Positions 927 to 11,018 of a DNA stretch of 42,796 nucleotides are shown in pieces; the stretch's first letter is position 1; each line of letters starts with the position of its first letter. Source of the stretch: an uncultured Bacteroidota bacterium (GTDB taxonomy: Bacteria > Bacteroidota > Bacteroidia > Chitinophagales > Saprospiraceae). The notes beneath the pieces are model-generated. The model had not been told where the DNA came from. It did no database searches and was given only the letters and a program-made list of their open reading frames with translations. The stretch spans positions 1 to 42,796 of the forward strand of contig CAILQK010000068.1 of assembly GCA_903836265.1 (NCBI GenBank), in the 5' to 3' direction. A program made the translations under genes and the position numbers.

Positions 927-1010
927 ACCACATCAGGAGCATGAATGGAGTGTGATGTACCTCGTTCGTCACTGCCCGTAAAAAGAACTTTCAACCATAC
1001 GATTGCAAAC

Positions 1011-1787
1011 ATGCGCAATGTACAATCCATCGTGGACGAAGTGAGAAAGATGTGGAGCACATACAGTCCGGTTGAGGCAATCCATGCTGCCGCCACATCA
1101 GGATTGTCACTAACCGGTCTGCCACCCTCCCTGCTTCCTGACTGCTACTGCTGCCTCTACAATTTACACAGACAGAGCTTCGATTATGCAGATCCGGGAG
1201 TCACGGCGGTGCTGGGTATTGACCCCGGAGTTTTTGACCTGTCAACCTGGTACTCCATGGTTCACACAGATGACCTGGAAGGCGTGAAGTGGAAAGAGCA
1301 GTATGTACGTGATTTCCTGCTCGGAAGAGTCAGTCCGGCACACCGCTCCGGCTACAGAATTTCCTATGTGTTCCGGATGATATCAAGCGACGGTAAGGAG
1401 AAGAAAATATTGCACCTGGCCTGTGCACTGACCGACAGGGATGGAGAACCCAGTCACCTGGTTTGCATACACACCGACGTCAGTTTTCTTGATATTGAGC
1501 GGTACGACCGTATTTCATTTGTCGGCACCAGCGGCGCCCCCTCCTTTTACGTTCAGGAGACATTCACAGACGTGCAAAAGCCTGATGATTTGCCGGAGAT
1601 TTCTCTTCGGGAAAAAGAGATACTGATTCATCTGTCGCGGGGTTTGTCAAGCAAACAAATTGCCAGTGAACTGAATATCTCCATGCACACCGTAGATACC
1701 CACAGACGCAACCTGCTCCGGAAAACCAAAACAAAAAACACCCTGCAACTGACAGCATTGTGTGTAAAAAATGGAATAATATTGTAA
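1011..1787 (+). CDS. LuxR-family transcriptional regulator with N-terminal PAS-like region (ORF open from 945)
   Basis: C-terminal LSLREKEILIHLSRGLSSKQIASELNISMHTVDTHRRNLLRKTKTKNTLQLT-type HTH; PAS-like sensor in the middle. Start uncertain (945 or 1011). Confidence 0.87.
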   Translation: MRNVQSIVDEVRKMWSTYSPVEAIHAAATSGLSLTGLPPSLLPDCYCCLYNLHRQSFDYADPGVTAVLGIDPGVFDLSTWYSMVHTDDLEGVKWKEQYVRDFLLGRVSPAHRSGYRISYVFRMISSDGKEKKILHLACALTDRDGEPSHLVCIHTDVSFLDIERYDRISFVGTSGAPSFYVQETFTDVQKPDDLPEISLREKEILIHLSRGLSSKQIASELNISMHTVDTHRRNLLRKTKTKNTLQLTALCVKNGIIL

Positions 1788-1815: not shown

Positions 1816-1861
1816 ACTTAAAAATGAGTATTTTATGAGCATAAAAGCAAAGGTAATTTTG
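1816..1861 (+). promoter_or_regulatory. Candidate operator (ACTTAAAAATGAGT) plus -7 box TAATTTTG
   Basis: ACTT-AAAAAT-GAGT at 1816-1829, 24 nt, then TAATTTTG (TAnnTTTG) at 1854-1861, upstream of the FISUMP gene; same layout at 9555-9601. Confidence 0.6.
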
Positions 1862-2008
1862 TGACATTATTTATCTCCGGATGTCACCGGGCGCTGATAT
1901 TTCCCCATTCCCCGGGGGACTTTCGAAGTATGTGCGCCATTGTACAGTTCAGGGAAATCAACAACCGTATTCTCATGGATGGATTTATCCTCCCAAAATC
2001 ATTCTGCA

Positions 2009-5000
2009 ATGAATAATTTTCTGTACGAATTCAGTTTCCACAGGCTGATATTTGTCTCATTATTGTTTTCTGTCACAGGTCAGAAGCTGCATGCACAGAA
2101 TTGCAATGCAAAAGTTTCGTCCACGGAAACCAGAGTATTCATGTGTCACAACCTCGGTGCTGCCAATACAGGCGCCAATCCGTTAACGCCGGGCTGGGAA
2201 ATCAATGGCGGTTACTGGCAATGGGGGCGCCTGGCACAGGCAGCGGCAGGACCAACCGGCTCAGGCAGTTCGCAGTCCAATTCCGGCAATGTTGGCGGGT
2301 GGAATACAACGCATGCTGACAATGGTTCATGGACCGACAACAGCAAGACATCAAATGACCCATGTCCGGCCGGATTTCGCATTCCGACGAAAACGCAGTG
2401 GGACGGGGTTGTCGCCAATAATACCATTACATATACTGGTACCAACTGGTCATCCGGCGCAACCAACTACAGCACGGGCATCAGGTTGGGCGACAACCTG
2501 TTTCTCCCGGCTGCCGGCACAAGGAACGGCATAACCGGTGCGTTATTCGACCGGGGTTTAACCGGTTTCTACTGGAGCAGTACAGAACTTGGCTCTGTCA
2601 ACGCCTGGGATCTGCGTTTCAACAATGGCAGTGTTTCCACGCAAAGTAACTTCAGACGCGCCGACGGATTCTCTGTGCGTTGTATCGCAGAGTCTGCCAT
2701 TACAGGTTCAACGGGTGCGCTGAACTGCCCGGGAAGCAGTGTAACAGGTACACTTACTGTCGGGCAGCCTGCCACAGGTGTTTCGGCATCTGTGCCATAC
2801 ACCAGTGGAAATGGCGGAGCACACAGCGGACAAACAGTTGCTTCAACCGGTGTGACCGGACTCACCGCCACCCTCTCTGCAGGCACTTTCGCCAATGGCA
2901 GCGGAGCACTGACGTACAACATAACCGGTACCCCTTCTGCAGCGGGCGTTGCCAGCTTTGCGCTGAGTATCGGCGGTCAGAGCTGTACCCTCGCTGTAAC
3001 CGTTGCGAGTGCCGTATGCAGTGCAAAGGTATCTGTATCAGAAGTGAGGGAGTTTATGTGCCATAACCTCGGTGCTGCAAACACGAGTGCCGATCCGTTT
3101 ACTCCCGGCTGGGAAATCAATGGCGGTTACTGGCAGTGGGGACGCCCGGCACAGGCCGCGGCCGGTCCGGCAGGCGCCGGATCGGGGCAGGCCAACGATG
3201 GCGCTGTTTCAGGATGGAATACTGCCAATGCTGCCAACGGCGACTGGTCCGACAACTCCAAAACGGCCAACGATCCTTGTCCTGCAGGATTCAGGGTGCC
3301 CACCAAAACTCAATGGGATGGCATAAAAGCCAATAACACCCTGACCAATCTGGGTACATGGACCAGCAGCCCAACCAATTACAGCAGTGGAAAGAAAGTT
3401 GGAACAGCCCTGATGCTCCCGGCGGCTGGCGTTCGGCTGGGAGATAACAACGGCACATTATATTTAAGAGGTTTGTTCGGGGGGTACTGGACGAGTACAG
3501 AATCAGGTTCATCAAATGCCTGGGGTATGTACTTTGAAAGCGGTTATTTTAACCCGAGTACCAACTATGTGCGCACTTTCGGGCTCTCTGTAAGGTGTAT
3601 GTCGGAAACTCCCATTACAGGATCTGTTGCCACTCTCAACTGCGCAGGGGCAACGGTTACAGGTACACTCACTTCAGGTCAGGCAGCAACTGGCGTTACC
3701 GCCTCGGTTCCCTACACTGGCGGCAATGGAGGGGGACACAATGGACAAACAGTCACCTCTACAGGCGTAACCGGACTTACTGCAGCCCTGTCAGCAGGCA
3801 ACTTTGCCAATGGCAGCGGCTCACTCACCTACAATATCACCGGAACTCCATCGTCAACCGGCACGGCAAACTTTGCACTCGATATCGGTGGCAAAACATG
3901 TACGCTTTCCGTCAGTGTCGCAAGTGTACAGTGCAGCGCCAAAGTATCTGCCACAGAAACGAGGGTATTCATGTGCCACAACCTCGGTGCTGCCAATACA
4001 GGTGCCAATCCGTTAACGCCGGGCTGGGAAATCAATGGCGGTTACTGGCAATGGGGCCGCCCGGCACAGGCCGCGGCCGGCCCAACCGGCCCCGGTTCAG
4101 GAGAAGCCAATATTGGTATCATCAGCGGATGGAATACTACCGCAGAACCAAATGGTGCATGGACAGATGCCAGTAAAACAGCCAATGACCCTTGTCCGTC
4201 AGGTTTCAGGGTACCCACAAAAGCACAGTGGGATGGCGTGGTGACCAATAATACCAGATCCAATGTGGGAACCTTCTTCAATAACGCTACCAATTACAGC
4301 TCCGGAGTTAAATTCGGCAACAACCTGATGCTTCCAACAGCGGGACGCAGGTATTACCTCAACAGCTCGTTTGACTTCCGCGGAAACGTTGGCTTCTACT
4401 GGAGTACCACAGAGAATGGATCCACCGAATCATGGTTCCTGCTCATCAATGGTGATGGAGCCTATGTTTTCAACAGTGGTATCAGAGCCGACGGATTTTC
4501 CGTGCGTTGCATCGCAGAATCTGCTGTTACAGGTTCAACAGGTGCACTAAACTGCGCAGGAAACAGTGTAACAGGTACACTTACTGTCGGGCAGCCCGCT
4601 ACAGGTGTTTCAGCATCTGTGCCTTACACCGGTGGAAATGGCGGAGCACACAGCGGACAAACAGTTGCTTCAACAGGTGTTACCGGACTCACTGCCACCC
4701 TCTCTGCAGGCACTTTCGCCAATGGCAGCGGGGCCCTCACCTACAATATCACAGGTACCCCTTCTGCAGCGGGCGTAGCCAGCTTTGCGCTGAGTATCGG
4801 CGGTCAGAGCTGTACCCTCGCTGTAACATCGGAACCCCCCATTACAGGATCTGTTGCCGCTCTCAACTGCGCAGGGGCAACGGTTACAGGTACACTCTCT
4901 TCAGGTCAGGCAGCAACTGGCGTTACCGCCTCAGTTCCCTACACTGGCGGCAATGGAGGGGTACACAATGGACAAACAGTCACCTCTACAGGCGTATCCG

Positions 5001-8000
5001 GACTTACTGCAGCCCTGTCAGCCAGCACCTTCGCCAGTGGCAGCGGCTCTCTCAACTATGTAATAACCGGTACTCCTGCCACTTCCGGCACCGCAAACTT
5101 TGAACTGAATATCGGTGGACAAACCTGTACACTTTCTGTGCAGATTGCCAGTGCCCGTTGCTTCGCGAAAATATCAGCGACAGAAACCAGGGTATTTATG
5201 TGCCACAACCTCGGTGCAGCCAATACAGGCGCTGATCCGTTTACTCCCGGATGGGAAATCAATGGCGGTTACTGGCAGTGGGGGCGTTTAAGCCAGGCTG
5301 CAGCAGGCCCGACAGGGCCGGGGGCCGGACAGGCAAATGAGGTCGCAGTTACGGGTTGGAATACTTCCAACGCTCCCGCTGGTTCCTGGTCTGACAATAC
5401 CAGGACGTCCAGTGACCCATGTCCTGCCGGGTTCAGGGTGCCGACAAGAACACATTGGGAAGGTGTAATATCCAATAATTCCCAGACAGGCACAGGAACA
5501 TGGTCGTCCGGCTTTACCAATTACAGTTCTGGAAAGATGTTTGGAAACAATCTGTTCTTTCCTGCTGCAGGATACAGAAACATAAGTAATGGAGCACTGG
5601 CAGGACGTGGAAACTCCAGCTATTACTGGAGCAGCACAGAAAACGGCGCGTTTGTTATAAGCCTTTCAGTTGGACTGAATCAAAGTTCAGTATTCAATGA
5701 TAACCACACCTACGGCAACTCCATACGTTGTATCGCAGAATCTCCTGTGATTGGTTCGATTGGAGCGCTCAACTGTTCGGGGACAACCGTCAGCGGCACA
5801 CTTATTGCCGGTCAGGCGGCCTCGGGGATTTCTGCCTCTGTGCCCTACACAGGCGGGAATGAAGGTGCGCATAACGGACAAACGATTTCCTCAACCGGTG
5901 TGACCGGCCTCACTGCCACCCTCACTGCAGGCACTTTCGCCAATGGCAGCGGGGCACTGACATACAACATCACCGGCATCCCCTCTGCAGCGGGTGTTGC
6001 CAACTTTGCGCTGAACATTGGAGGTCGGGGTTGTACCCTGTCGGCAGTTGCAGTACAATTGCCTGTCATCTCAACAGTCGAGAATTCAGGATACACGAAC
6101 AACGACGGAGTGATTTGTGCAGGTGCAACCGTGACGCTCAATGCTGTCAATGGCACAAGCTTTGTTTGGAGTAACGGATCAGGCACGTCATCCACGGTGG
6201 TTTCACCAACTTCGACCACTACCTACACAGTAACGGCTACCGATTCATTCGGATCCACCACTACTGCCTCTGCGACAATAACTGTAAATTCAGTTCCGGC
6301 ACCCGGCCTTTCCATCGCTGAAACCTCGGGGGCAGCAGTCAACGACGGCGAAATCTGTTCCGGTGCGAATGTGACACTCACTGCGTCAGGCGGAGGAACC
6401 TATTTGTGGAATACAGCCAGTTCTGCGGCGTCCATTACTGTTTCACCAGTGTCAACAACCACCTACACTGTATTGGTTACCAGTGTGAACGGATGCAGTG
6501 CCACGGCTGTCGGTACGATAGCGGTTACTCAACAGCAGGTGCCGACAGTGGCTGTTTTTGAATTGTCGGGTGCAGCCAACAACGATGCAGTCATTTGTGA
6601 GGGGGCAAGTGCTTCACTCACGGCTTCGGGAGGCAGCTCATACCTGTGGTCGAACGGGGCTTCCACTGCGTCAATTGATGTATCGCCGACTGCCACTGCC
6701 ACCTACACCGTTACGGCAACCAACAACAACGGTTGTACTGCAACCAACACCCGTACAATAACAGTTACCCCGCAGGCGATTCCTTCAGTTGCCGTTTCGG
6801 AAGTTTCGGGTGTGTCTGATAATGACGCGATCATTTGTGAGGGAGCAAGCGCTTCACTCACAGTTTCGGGGGGGGTATCCTACATCTGGTCAAACGGAGC
6901 CACCACTGCGTCAATCAGTGTAACACCGGCAGCTACAGCCACTTACACCGTTACAGCAACCAACGCCAACGGTTGTACTGCAACCAACACCCGTACAATC
7001 GTGGTTAATCCGATACCCTCAACAATGGTGACTGTAGAGGAAATGTCGGGTTCAGCCGTCAACGATGGTATAATATGTGCGGGGGCAAGCGTATTGCTCA
7101 CCGCTTCGGGAGGAATTTCATTTCTTTGGACAAACGGTGTCTCCGGCACTTCATTAACAGTTTCGCCAACTGCTACTGCCACTTACACCGTAACGGCAAC
7201 CGATGCCAATGGATGTAATGCAACAACAAGCCAGACGATTACTGTCAATCCGTTGCCAAATCCTTCAGTAGTTGTTGCGGAAACCTCCGGTCTGGTCAGT
7301 AACGATGCTGTAATCTGTATGGGATCAAGCGCGTTACTTACAGCTTCAGGAGGTGTTTCCTATCTGTGGAATAACGGATCCAATACGTCATCCAATACCG
7401 TATCGCCATCCGTGACCACCACTTACACTGTTACCTTAACCAATGTCAATGGCTGTACTGCGAGCACAACCCGCACAATCACAGTTATTCCACCTCCGAC
7501 TCCAACCATCACCGTTGCTGAAACTTCAGCAGCAGCCAATAACGACGGTGTAATATGTGTAGGTGATGGCGCCACACTGACAGCTGCAGATGGTATTTCG
7601 TACGTCTGGAATACAGGCGCTGCATCAACTTCCATCAGTGTGAGTCCCGCAGTCACAACCACCTACACGGTAACGGTAACCAACAGCAACCTTTGTACTG
7701 CTACCGCTACCACCACGGTAACGGTTCTGGCAGATGCCACGATCACCTCATTCAGTCCGGCATCCGGACAACCGGGTACAATCGTTACAATCAACGGAGC
7801 AGCGATGGGTTGCCTGCAATCGGTAACTATCGGTGGTGTCCCGCAGATCATTCTGGGAAAAACCAATAATTCAGCCACGATATTTGTCATGCCCGGCACA
7901 CCCTCAGGTCCGATCAGCGTGACTGCGAACAACAACAGTCTGGCTGTCAGTTCCACCGCGTTTACAGTGACCGCCACACCACACCCCTACATTCAGCAGG

Positions 8001-9451
8001 GAGGCAAGACTGCTGGGGGCAGTTCATCGGGAAGCCCCCAGCAGGGCACATCAGTGGCCGTGAGTGCAGATGGAAATACCGTTGCAATCGGTGGCCCGAC
8101 AGACGACTCCAACAAGGGAGCAGTCTGGATATTTGTCAGGAATGGTACAACCTGGTCTCAACAGGGAGGCAAACTGACAGGCTCAGGTGCCGTTGGCACC
8201 GCCCGTCAGGGAACATCAGTAGCAATCAGTGCCGACGGAAATACAGTTGCAATCGGAGGCCCGACAGACAATTCATCCGCAGGTGCAGTCTGGATCTTCA
8301 CCCGCACGAATGGCATGTGGTCCCAGCAGGGAAATAAACTGACTGGTACAGGCGCTTCCGGTAATGCACAACAGGGTGCTGCAATCAGTCTGAGTGCTAC
8401 CGGAAATATAATGGCAGTTGGTGGCCCTGCGGACAATTCATATTCCGGTGCCGCCTGGGTCTTCGCCCGTAATGGCGACACATGGGCACAGGAGGGATCC
8501 AAATTAACAGGAACAGGAAAAGTGGGCCAGGCTCGCCAGGGTGTCTCGGTTGCGGTCAGTTCAGATGGTACCACCCTGATTACAGGCGGGAACAATGATA
8601 TGAATCGCCGGGGTGCAGCCTGGGTGTTTGTCAGAGGCAGCGGAACATGGAACCAGCAGGGCACCAAACTGGTGGGAACAGGAGCATCTTCCGATAGCTG
8701 GCAGGGTATCTCGGTAGCTGTCAGCGCCAATGGCAATACTGCCCTGATCGGAGGAAGTTCTGACAATTCGCTGAAAGGTGCAGCATGGGTATTCACCCGC
8801 AGCAGCGGCATGTGGAGTCAGCAGGGGTCAAAACTTGTCGGTACCGGTGCAACTGGTGCTGCCCGCCAGGGAAGCTCCGTTGGACTCAGCGCAGATGGAA
8901 ATACCGCGGTTATCGGAGGCTTTGGCGACAACTCCAACAGAGGCGCCATGTGGGTTTACAAGCGAAATGGCACCACCTGGGCACAACAGGGAGCGAAGAT
9001 CAACGGCAGCGGGGCATCGGGCTCGGCAAAACAGGGCACAGCAGCCAGTCTGAGTTCAAATGGCACAACTGTTGCGATTGGCGGACCTGCCGACGCATCA
9101 AACAAGGGAGCATTCTGGTTCTTTGTACCGAATTCGGCACTGGCAGATACCAAAACTGATGTGCGCACTGAAGAGGAGCAATCTGCTGCAGATCACAAGG
9201 TTGTGTTGTACCAGAACGTACCCAACCCGCTCACCGACAGAACAAGTGTCAGATTCACAATACCTGAAGCCTGCACGGCGACATGGCAAATTACAGACAT
9301 AAAAGGAAGGACAATACTTGAACTGAAGCGCAACTACCCGGCAGGCGACAACACGGAAGTATTTGATTTAAGTGGTTACCAGGGCGTATTCTGGTACACA
9401 CTCCGGACTCCATTTGGAAATAAAACAAGACAAATGTTGATCATCAAATAG
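2009..9451 (+). CDS. Giant secreted FISUMP-domain protein: 4 FISUMP units, 5 Ig-like caps, seven 80-aa repeats, IPT/TIG-like segment, seven 55-aa FG-GAP-like repeats, T9SS type A C-terminal domain
   Basis: FISUMP signatures (GWEINGGYWQWGR, DPCPAGFRVPTKTQWDG, GFYWSSTE, GFSVRCIAE); repeats YTVTATNANGCTAT; VSADGNTVAIGGP repeats; C-term YQNVPNPLTDRTSVRFTIPEA...KTRQMLIIK. The ORF track starts at 1940 (TTG); ATG 2009 is followed by a plausible signal peptide. Confidence 0.9.
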   Translation: MNNFLYEFSFHRLIFVSLLFSVTGQKLHAQNCNAKVSSTETRVFMCHNLGAANTGANPLTPGWEINGGYWQWGRLAQAAAGPTGSGSSQSNSGNVGGWNTTHADNGSWTDNSKTSNDPCPAGFRIPTKTQWDGVVANNTITYTGTNWSSGATNYSTGIRLGDNLFLPAAGTRNGITGALFDRGLTGFYWSSTELGSVNAWDLRFNNGSVSTQSNFRRADGFSVRCIAESAITGSTGALNCPGSSVTGTLTVGQPATGVSASVPYTSGNGGAHSGQTVASTGVTGLTATLSAGTFANGSGALTYNITGTPSAAGVASFALSIGGQSCTLAVTVASAVCSAKVSVSEVREFMCHNLGAANTSADPFTPGWEINGGYWQWGRPAQAAAGPAGAGSGQANDGAVSGWNTANAANGDWSDNSKTANDPCPAGFRVPTKTQWDGIKANNTLTNLGTWTSSPTNYSSGKKVGTALMLPAAGVRLGDNNGTLYLRGLFGGYWTSTESGSSNAWGMYFESGYFNPSTNYVRTFGLSVRCMSETPITGSVATLNCAGATVTGTLTSGQAATGVTASVPYTGGNGGGHNGQTVTSTGVTGLTAALSAGNFANGSGSLTYNITGTPSSTGTANFALDIGGKTCTLSVSVASVQCSAKVSATETRVFMCHNLGAANTGANPLTPGWEINGGYWQWGRPAQAAAGPTGPGSGEANIGIISGWNTTAEPNGAWTDASKTANDPCPSGFRVPTKAQWDGVVTNNTRSNVGTFFNNATNYSSGVKFGNNLMLPTAGRRYYLNSSFDFRGNVGFYWSTTENGSTESWFLLINGDGAYVFNSGIRADGFSVRCIAESAVTGSTGALNCAGNSVTGTLTVGQPATGVSASVPYTGGNGGAHSGQTVASTGVTGLTATLSAGTFANGSGALTYNITGTPSAAGVASFALSIGGQSCTLAVTSEPPITGSVAALNCAGATVTGTLSSGQAATGVTASVPYTGGNGGVHNGQTVTSTGVSGLTAALSASTFASGSGSLNYVITGTPATSGTANFELNIGGQTCTLSVQIASARCFAKISATETRVFMCHNLGAANTGADPFTPGWEINGGYWQWGRLSQAAAGPTGPGAGQANEVAVTGWNTSNAPAGSWSDNTRTSSDPCPAGFRVPTRTHWEGVISNNSQTGTGTWSSGFTNYSSGKMFGNNLFFPAAGYRNISNGALAGRGNSSYYWSSTENGAFVISLSVGLNQSSVFNDNHTYGNSIRCIAESPVIGSIGALNCSGTTVSGTLIAGQAASGISASVPYTGGNEGAHNGQTISSTGVTGLTATLTAGTFANGSGALTYNITGIPSAAGVANFALNIGGRGCTLSAVAVQLPVISTVENSGYTNNDGVICAGATVTLNAVNGTSFVWSNGSGTSSTVVSPTSTTTYTVTATDSFGSTTTASATITVNSVPAPGLSIAETSGAAVNDGEICSGANVTLTASGGGTYLWNTASSAASITVSPVSTTTYTVLVTSVNGCSATAVGTIAVTQQQVPTVAVFELSGAANNDAVICEGASASLTASGGSSYLWSNGASTASIDVSPTATATYTVTATNNNGCTATNTRTITVTPQAIPSVAVSEVSGVSDNDAIICEGASASLTVSGGVSYIWSNGATTASISVTPAATATYTVTATNANGCTATNTRTIVVNPIPSTMVTVEEMSGSAVNDGIICAGASVLLTASGGISFLWTNGVSGTSLTVSPTATATYTVTATDANGCNATTSQTITVNPLPNPSVVVAETSGLVSNDAVICMGSSALLTASGGVSYLWNNGSNTSSNTVSPSVTTTYTVTLTNVNGCTASTTRTITVIPPPTPTITVAETSAAANNDGVICVGDGATLTAADGISYVWNTGAASTSISVSPAVTTTYTVTVTNSNLCTATATTTVTVLADATITSFSPASGQPGTIVTINGAAMGCLQSVTIGGVPQIILGKTNNSATIFVMPGTPSGPISVTANNNSLAVSSTAFTVTATPHPYIQQGGKTAGGSSSGSPQQGTSVAVSADGNTVAIGGPTDDSNKGAVWIFVRNGTTWSQQGGKLTGSGAVGTARQGTSVAISADGNTVAIGGPTDNSSAGAVWIFTRTNGMWSQQGNKLTGTGASGNAQQGAAISLSATGNIMAVGGPADNSYSGAAWVFARNGDTWAQEGSKLTGTGKVGQARQGVSVAVSSDGTTLITGGNNDMNRRGAAWVFVRGSGTWNQQGTKLVGTGASSDSWQGISVAVSANGNTALIGGSSDNSLKGAAWVFTRSSGMWSQQGSKLVGTGATGAARQGSSVGLSADGNTAVIGGFGDNSNRGAMWVYKRNGTTWAQQGAKINGSGASGSAKQGTAASLSSNGTTVAIGGPADASNKGAFWFFVPNSALADTKTDVRTEEEQSAADHKVVLYQNVPNPLTDRTSVRFTIPEACTATWQITDIKGRTILELKRNYPAGDNTEVFDLSGYQGVFWYTLRTPFGNKTRQMLIIK
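2689..6050 (+). repeat. Alternating FISUMP/cap repeat region with A-type and B-type caps
   Basis: Cap A at ~2689-3010 and ~4516-4827, cap B at ~3604-3922 and ~4828-5150, a fifth cap at ~5738-6050. Long near-identical DNA stretches within each type. Confidence 0.85.
6056..7735 (+). repeat. Seven tandem 240-bp (80-aa) Ig-like repeats with no length variation
   Basis: The equivalent ATxTGT (IC) position recurs ending at 6120, 6360, 6600, 6840, 7080, 7320 and 7560. Confidence 0.88.
7987..9131 (+). repeat. Seven tandem 165-bp (55-aa) FG-GAP-like repeats, probable seven-bladed beta-propeller
   Basis: CAGGG(x) anchor at 8042, 8207, 8372, 8537, 8702, 8867 and 9032, exactly 165 bp apart; a partial unit precedes the first. 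Confidence 0.85.
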
Positions 9452-9471
9452 TTGATCGCCTGCAAACCTTG

Positions 9472-9510
9472 ACACACGGCCGTCCGGACTTGATTCGGAT
9501 GGCCGTGTGT
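9472..9510 (+). terminator. Strong hairpin after the FISUMP gene (no clear U-tract)
   Basis: ACACACGGCCGTCCGGA ... TCGGATGGCCGTGTGT, 21 nt after the stop codon. Confidence 0.5.
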
Positions 9511-9554
9511 ATTTGGCGTCACGACGTGCCATTTCTGACAAACAGATTGAAAAA

Positions 9555-9601
9555 TACTCAAAAATGAGTATTTTTCAGGGAATAATGCTGCGATAGATTT
9601 G
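9555..9601 (+). promoter_or_regulatory. Candidate operator (TACTCAAAAATGAGTA palindrome) plus -7 box TAGATTTG
   Basis: TACTC-AAAAAT-GAGTA within a perfect AAAAATACTC/GAGTATTTTT inverted repeat; 24 nt between GAGT and TAGATTTG, identical to the 1816 site. Confidence 0.65.
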
Positions 9602-9642
9602 TGTGTTGAAACAGAGTATATATGCACAACCAGATACTTCAA

Positions 9643-10917
9643 ATGAAAACAAACAAACTAAAATTCTGGATTGCAGGCATACTGCTGGCTGCAGGGCTTT
9701 TTACACTGTCAGTCAGATCCAATAAATCTCCACAGAATCTGATATGGAGTGATATGGATGGCTACTATGTATATCTTCCTGCAGTGTTTATTCATCAGGG
9801 TTTTGTCAGGGAAGCGGCAAGAGACACCAATTATCTGCAGGTCTGGCCGGGCACTGATAAAATATTTACCAAATACACCTGTGGAGTATCGTTACTGGAG
9901 TCTCCCTTTTTCATTGTGGCACACATCCTGAGTGAACCTTTGGGATTTGCTCCCGACGGACACAGCCTCATCTATTGCTACCTGTTGATGCTATCTGCCA
10001 TTTTCTGTCTCATGGCAGGCAGTGTATTGCTCTGGAGAGTTTGTCGAAAATATTACAGTGACAAGAGCGTCATTCTGGCTATAACATGCCTCTTTTTTGG
10101 CACCAATATGTACTATTATACCATATTTCAGCCAACAATGTCACACATATACAGTTTTTTCATGTACGCCTGTTTGCTGTATCTGACGGAGAAAATCATA
10201 GTGGAACGTACATATAACCGGAGCAATTTTGCGCTGGCGGGGCTAGTTTCCGGACTGGTTATCCTGATTCGCCCTACATCGGCCATTGTACTGTTGTACC
10301 CTGTTTACCGGTTTATCAAAAGTATTGACGATAAACCCGGATGGTTCAGAAAAAATCTGAAATACTGCATTCTGGCCCTGTTGGCAGGTATGATCGTGTT
10401 CATTCCGCAGCTGATATACTGGAAGCATGTGACCGGCGAGTGGTTTATGTGGTCATACGGGGAAGAGTCTTTCAAATACTGGAAAGAGCCCAAACTGTTT
10501 CGTGTATTGTTTGATGCCTGGAATGGCTGGCTGCTGTACAGTCCCGTTGCTGCCATACCCCTGATCGGATTAATACAGGAGAGACACAGGAACAGACACG
10601 GTGAAAGAGCCGTCATTTTCATATTTGCGCTGGCTACCTGGCTTTTTGCCAGTTGGTGGGCCTGGTGGTTTGGTGGGGCATTTGGTCATCGCTGTTATGT
10701 GGAGTACTGCGCATTTCTGGTTTTGCCATTTTCCGGCATTATAGAAAAGGCGGCCCAAAATCGGGTACGAGGTGTTCTTTTTGGAGCACTTTGTGTCGTA
10801 CTGGTATATTACAGCATGGGCCTGACATACAATTATCGTGCACCCTGGGATGGCCCGGACTGGACGTATGAAAAAGTTGCCGGGGAGATAGAGAGACTTG
10901 TTCACTTTCAGTTTTGA
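9643..10917 (+). CDS. Polytopic membrane protein, GT-C-type glycosyltransferase-like
   Basis: Multiple TM segments; acidic loop SDMDGYYVYLPAVF; FQPTMSHIYSFF; alternative start at 9622. Confidence 0.6.
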   Translation: MKTNKLKFWIAGILLAAGLFTLSVRSNKSPQNLIWSDMDGYYVYLPAVFIHQGFVREAARDTNYLQVWPGTDKIFTKYTCGVSLLESPFFIVAHILSEPLGFAPDGHSLIYCYLLMLSAIFCLMAGSVLLWRVCRKYYSDKSVILAITCLFFGTNMYYYTIFQPTMSHIYSFFMYACLLYLTEKIIVERTYNRSNFALAGLVSGLVILIRPTSAIVLLYPVYRFIKSIDDKPGWFRKNLKYCILALLAGMIVFIPQLIYWKHVTGEWFMWSYGEESFKYWKEPKLFRVLFDAWNGWLLYSPVAAIPLIGLIQERHRNRHGERAVIFIFALATWLFASWWAWWFGGAFGHRCYVEYCAFLVLPFSGIIEKAAQNRVRGVLFGALCVVLVYYSMGLTYNYRAPWDGPDWTYEKVAGEIERLVHFQF

Positions 10918-10963: not shown

Positions 10964-11018
10964 TGCCCCGGTGTGATTCAGTCGCGCCGGGTATTTTTTA
11001 TCAATGGCGGTTACAAAT
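10964..11018 (+). repeat. Intergenic hairpin repeat copy 2 (terminator-like)
   Basis: GCCCCGGTGTGATTCAGTCGCGCCGGGTATTTTTTATCAATGGCGGTTACAAAT; matches 872-926. Confidence 0.72.

Follow-up and report, generated by a model that had tools for sequence, protein, structure and literature searches.

A PAS-LuxR gene followed by two predicted operator-promoters in a Saprospiraceae bacterium, and similar fixed-spacing layouts across Bacteroidota

Introduction

The lux boxes of LuxI/LuxR quorum-sensing regulators, which carry a GerE DNA-binding domain, sit near -42. Among one-component proteins that join a PAS domain to a LuxR-type helix-turn-helix (HTH), PimM, PteF and CfaR of Streptomyces have local targets, and CfaR and PimM bind a 16-bp palindrome, CTVGGGAWWTCCCBAG, just upstream of or overlapping the -35 element (PMC4380410). 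As far as that source describes them, they belong to polyene or phytotoxin clusters and have no operator directly behind the regulator's own stop codon. The 7-2-7 site of Escherichia coli NarL is likewise a 16-bp dyad that starts with TAC and ends with GTA, as at narG -89 (TACCCCTAAAGGGGTA; PMC4549865), and NarL has a receiver domain, a histidine kinase partner and a global regulon. For activation by NarL, a single 7-2-7 site abutting -35 is enough at yeaR, and at ogt NarL acts from a 7-2-7 site centred at -44.5 (PMC7419079).

Here we describe a locus in a window of 42,796 nucleotides from an uncultured Saprospiraceae bacterium, in which a PAS-LuxR gene is followed by two palindromes, each upstream of a promoter box. 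The locus resembles those of PimM, PteF and CfaR in domain content and, by sequence, in placing a 16-bp palindrome beside the -35/-33 element of its predicted target promoters, but the operator is of the form TAC-N10-GTA and the sigma box is another one. With the NarL site its dyads share the 16-bp length and the outer TAC and GTA; the locus differs from NarL in its PAS domain and in a predicted local regulon of two promoters, and it differs from LuxI/LuxR systems in having a PAS rather than an autoinducer-binding domain and in its site sequence. To our knowledge, specific activators with mapped operators are scarce in environmental Bacteroidota, and little is known of how the cell-surface genes of these bacteria are regulated.

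Results

The gene at 945-1787 (+ strand) encodes a PAS-LuxR one-component regulator of 280 aa with the recognition helix HTVDTHRRNLL. Its C-terminal part matches the GerE/LuxR HTH (Pfam GerE, 55.8 bits, cut-off 23.5, E 3.5e-15) and its N-terminal part a PAS domain (PAS_3, 27.7 bits, cut-off 25.6, E 3.4e-06); Pfam finds PAS_3 in place of the receiver domain of NarL-family response regulators, and no autoinducer-binding domain. The initial annotation had singled out this gene as encoding the candidate regulator, and its product is indeed the one clear GerE protein of the genome, at 59 bits against at most 27 for all others, among which is an ECF sigma factor encoded in the window. A profile of its relatives matches the PAS-LuxR-like structure PDB 3clo over its full length (positions 6-250, E 3.3e-35); 3clo, named only "Transcriptional regulator", has the helix TVNRHRQN. 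Upstream, at 31-843, lies the end of a gene encoding a caspase-like CHAT domain.

Predicted operator 1 (TACTTAAAAATGAGTA, 1815-1830, + strand) begins 27 nt past the LuxR stop codon and is a TAC-N10-GTA dyad that relatives match in place and form; it is imperfect, with one arm pair broken (TACTTA/TGAGTA). Predicted operator 2 (TACTCAAAAATGAGTA, 9555-9570, + strand) is the perfect inverted repeat that had been reported, with 6-bp arms around AAAA, and its flanks lengthen the arms to 13 bp. The NarL heptamer consensus is TACYYMT-NN-AKRRGTA, which the right arm ATGAGTA fits, the left arms TACTCAA and TACTTAA miss at the final T, and the TACTCAT-AA-ATGAGTA of relatives fits fully. Each site is followed on the + strand by a TAnnTTTG box, TAATTTTG at 1854-1861 and TAGATTTG at 9594-9601. 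Both sites and both boxes were confirmed where they had been placed, and the spacing is identical as claimed; the reported value of 24 nt counts from a 14-mer, and from the full 16-mer the distance is 23 nt at both sites.

The window holds two strong matches against a mean of 0.23 in shuffled sequence (up to three mismatches). Across the 4.33-Mb assembly, which is 94.6% complete, the 16-mer occurs exactly twice, with the next best match at one mismatch. The genome scan for the motif with a spaced TAnnTTTG, a check that the initial annotation had proposed, returned dyad, 23 nt and box at exactly two places, both in this locus, and none in the reversed control (up to three mismatches over the specified bases). 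The earlier observation that the window has no third copy therefore extends to the entire assembly.

The TAnnTTTG box of Flavobacterium promoters occupies -12 to -5 (PMC9723704), which sets the predicted transcription starts near 1866 and 9606 and places the dyad at -51 to -36, centred at -43.5; the three bases that follow it then fall at -35 to -33. At operator 1 these adjoining bases are TTT (1831-1833, + strand). TTG or TTT is present here in 22 of 25 relatives and in all 66 members of a larger, phylum-wide set (TTG in 61, TTT in the other five), in agreement with the TTTG motif reported around -33 in Bacteroides (PMC7366714). Given this position and the NarL, CfaR and PimM precedents, the geometry argues for direct activation.

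Behind promoter 1 lies a gene for a giant secreted protein (target 1, 2009-9451, + strand; ORF 1940-9451, 2503 aa), with a likely start at ATG 2009 followed by a signal peptide, and with FISUMP (Fib_succ_major), Ig-like and FG-GAP repeats; its T9SS C-terminal tail is weak (24 bits, under the Pfam cut-off of 27). Along the ORF, four FISUMP-like repeats alternate with a repeated unit of ~100 aa before the Ig-like and FG-GAP parts. Target 2 (9622-10917, + strand) is a membrane protein of 431 aa, starting at ATG 9622 or possibly ATG 9643, with weak similarity to GT-C mannosyltransferases only (Glyco_transf_22, E 0.0012, below the cut-off). Between target 1 and operator 2 is a strong hairpin with a 17-bp stem (9472-9510, + strand; RNA fold -33.7 kcal/mol, z -6.4). 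Because site 2 comes after this hairpin, promoter 2 appears to be isolated by it, so that target 2 would be transcribed from a promoter of its own. The entire segment from the LuxR gene through its targets is flanked by a pair of near-identical hairpins of terminator-like form, one at 871-901 before the LuxR gene and one at 10967-10991 (+ strand) after target 2; their shared sequence, CCCCGGTGTGAnnnAGTCGCGCCGGG, was matched at 873-898 and 10966-10991 (two found, 0.01 expected).

None of 41 congeners has the exact 16-mer, and the regulator has few close TACTCA relatives, with protein identities of 31-37%. Its best relatives nevertheless carry a TACTCA-N4-TGAGTA dyad directly 3' of their own gene. 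The initial annotation had proposed conservation near orthologues as a check, and relatives with similar helices have the dyad behind the regulator gene in G010 (TACTCATATTTGAGTA, box TACCTTCG at 24 nt; L018/L079), G019 (TACTCATAAATGAGTA, box TACTTTTA at 23 nt; L020/L080) and genus g48 (TACTCATTTATGAGTA). In another genus, G251, G187, G326 and G295 have a TACTCA dyad behind the gene with the box TATCTTTG at 23 nt, and in G026 the dyad and TACTTTTG at 24 nt precede a collar-domain gene resembling that of G010. Targets in this group are mixed: the FISUMP giant, collar plus T9SS proteins, and a DUF1800 gene. P0001 as a lone query found no relatives in the genome contigs; the profile search of these contigs used the tighter alignment A5, the broader A4 being too variable. 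In genus g48 (L083-L087), the promoter that directly follows the PAS-LuxR gene faces the 3' end of a convergent gene, and no reading frame is evident there; this promoter may drive a small or antisense RNA. Looser TACTCANNNNTGAGTA matches in G029, G027 and G038 were set aside as chance-like, having no LuxR match near and no box at the right distance; several fall within or against reading frames. One stretch of Rhs-like repeats in G029 (L099) has two identical TACTCATTTATGAGTA copies 6 kb apart in a duplicated segment, with no LuxR match nearby.

In an order-wide sample of 119 PAS-LuxR genes, a TAC-N10-GTA dyad lies within 200 nt past the stop codon in 32, and dyad plus box at 22-24 nt in 28; the other 91 are without dyad and box nearby. 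The combination was found in the 3' flank of none of 47 other LuxR genes, and at 0.0 in shuffles. As this first sample contains loci found by the motif (L053-L055, L075, L083), we examined two further sets chosen by protein alone, which contain none. Their profiles were built on site-bearing regulators, so that the sets lean to site-bearing subgroups, and flanking DNA had no role in the choice. Dyad and box are present in 5 of 33 loci of the class-wide set, all at 23 nt (0.015 expected). The phylum-wide set, with named members in Saprospiraceae, Chitinophagaceae, Cytophagales, Flavobacteriaceae and Bacteroidales, has the dyad in 66 of 79 loci and the box too in 62, every one at exactly 23 nt (0.0 in shuffles).

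This distance stays constant across the phylum despite changes in the dyad sequence. Among 24 regulators below 70% identity, the gap to the box is 23 nt in 19 of 23 and 24 nt in two, and any other gap from 0 to 49 nt occurs at most once; box matching throughout tolerates one mismatch, mostly G in place of the first T. Other PAS-LuxR genes have differing dyads in the same place with the box at 23 nt (TACTGATAAATCAGTA, TACTGCAAATGCAGTA, TACGACAATTGTCGTA, TACCTAGCACTAGGTA), and in one case the differing dyad, TACCTTTTTTAAGGTA, lies 140 nt past its PAS-LuxR gene, again with the box at 23 nt. When 298 genomes were scanned loosely for dyad plus box, 50 places stood among the matches listed versus ~22 in the reversed control, a level at which only the exact-spacing class is informative. 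The dyad of L170, 86 nt behind the gene, was treated as chance, since it has no box. Second sites within one locus, as here, were also found in L254, L101, L352 and L363, and some loci (L090, L101) have sites without an adjacent LuxR gene.

The half-site sequence covaries with the recognition helix. Permutations that ignore shared ancestry were run on 37 sites of regulators less than 60% identical, with 5' and 3' positions treated separately. Bases 4 and 5 of the half-site depend on residue x of THRx (p 0.0005 for both), and base 6 on residue x of TVxTH (p 0.0010); for the 20 box-bearing sites the values are 0.0020 and 0.0005 for THRx with bases 4 and 5, and 0.0005 for TVxTH with base 6. THRK goes with TACC and THRR mostly with TACTC, whereas the half-sites of THRQ and THRY proteins mostly start TACTG or TACTA; base 6 is C where the helix has TVR and A where it has TVN or TVD. 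Exceptions are L289, L295, L119, L113 and L159. Among the 66 first dyads of the phylum-wide set, TACTGA is paired with a THRQ helix in 61 and TACTAA with THRY in three; the remainder are one TACTTA with THRQ and one TACTGA whose helix was misread by the pattern. A PAS-LuxR subgroup with the helix QTVDTHRKN (L116, L152, L153, L155, L187) has TACC[CG]ATTTATAGGTA in front of the regulator gene itself, at a distance of 80-123 nt, which suggests autoregulation.

Discussion

We propose, with a probability of roughly 0.88, that the palindromes are operators of the adjacent one-component PAS-LuxR activator, which would control a small local regulon of two targets. In such a mechanism the PAS domain would sense a signal and the GerE domain would bind DNA as a dimer, occupying the 16-bp dyad as two facing TAC-N3 half-sites directly upstream of the -33 element, centred at about -43.5. 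The bound regulator would then recruit polymerase with the primary sigma factor to the TAnnTTTG promoter, site 1 switching on the giant FISUMP-type protein and site 2 the membrane protein. The initial annotation had suggested an operator just upstream of the promoter, bound by the adjacent activator, and each part open to testing held: conservation of the dyad, its spacing and its covariation with the helix all support the suggestion. We infer that the PAS-LuxR protein binds the sites, that it activates and does not repress, where transcription would start, and that a signal is sensed; "activator" is a reading of position.

The same protein at the same operator could instead act as a repressor, with the occupied -51 to -36 region blocking polymerase until a PAS ligand releases it. 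The sites touch the -33 element, where sigma could be kept out by whatever protein is bound, and sequence does not tell activation from repression; a steric block, however, tolerates many positions, whereas a fixed 23-nt phase over diverged dyads is expected for polymerase contact, and NarL and PimM/CfaR activate from this position. We therefore consider repression unlikely. That the regulator is some other, unlinked protein, with the LuxR gene a chance neighbour, seems very improbable to us: the dyads are of NarL/GerE form in a genome with one clear GerE protein, and phylum-wide the dyad keeps its place next to the regulator gene, its sequence shifting with the recognition helix, even if site 2 is 7.8 kb from the LuxR gene here and L090 and L101 show that sites can occur apart from one.

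Alternatively, the palindromes could function in RNA, as terminator or attenuator hairpins ending the upstream gene. The majority of sites do sit just past a stop codon, and site 2 with its flanks folds well (z -4.1), its minus strand scoring as terminator-like. Yet the core hairpins at this locus are weak (-2.7 to -4.9 kcal/mol), site 1 folds barely better than shuffles (z -0.75), target 1 is already ended by the much stronger hairpin at 9472-9510, and sites also occur upstream of genes away from the LuxR 3' end (L090, L091, L101). Moreover, a terminator predicts neither a fixed promoter distance nor covariation with a protein helix. With folding tested, we rejected the terminator reading, which we regard as having a very small chance of being correct.

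Returning to the operator reading, we consider it likely that widespread Bacteroidota cassettes consist of a PAS-LuxR gene, its own operator-promoter and a surface or secreted gene, commonly TonB-receptor-like, with two helix residues setting the inner half-site bases. The proposed layout is the regulator gene, then within a few bases TAC-N10-GTA, TTG, N20 and TAnnTTTG; in the proposed code, K at THRx would specify TACC, R TACTC, and Q or Y TACTG or TACTA, and at TVxTH, R would specify C and N or D would specify A at base 6. If this is true, the operator of an uncharacterised member would be largely readable from its protein sequence. From sequence alone, a single stretch shows the regulator together with its operator, promoter and target; the promoter is located by the rigid spacing, and the operator is tracked by a handful of helix residues. 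Operator prediction, PAS-ligand reporter screens and specificity swaps are therefore directly testable.

The mechanism resembles that of known PAS-LuxR and NarL activators, and what would be new is the Bacteroidota cassette layout, in which the spacing is fixed and the operator can in part be read from the protein. In the literature searched, mostly outside subscription journals, we found no description of this layout and half-site code, no match to the operator sequences, and none for PAS-LuxR together with Bacteroidetes, TonB and palindromes. Of 66 promoters in the TACTGA subgroup, 54 precede a homologue of a CarboxypepD_reg-containing protein that we call TonB-receptor-like from its length, N-terminal domain and C-terminus, and these targets point to control of uptake at the cell surface. 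At L245/L313 and L246/L302, the operator-promoter is followed only by a 42-aa reading frame that looks like the signal peptide of such a TonB-receptor-like protein, which would fit loss of the target gene.
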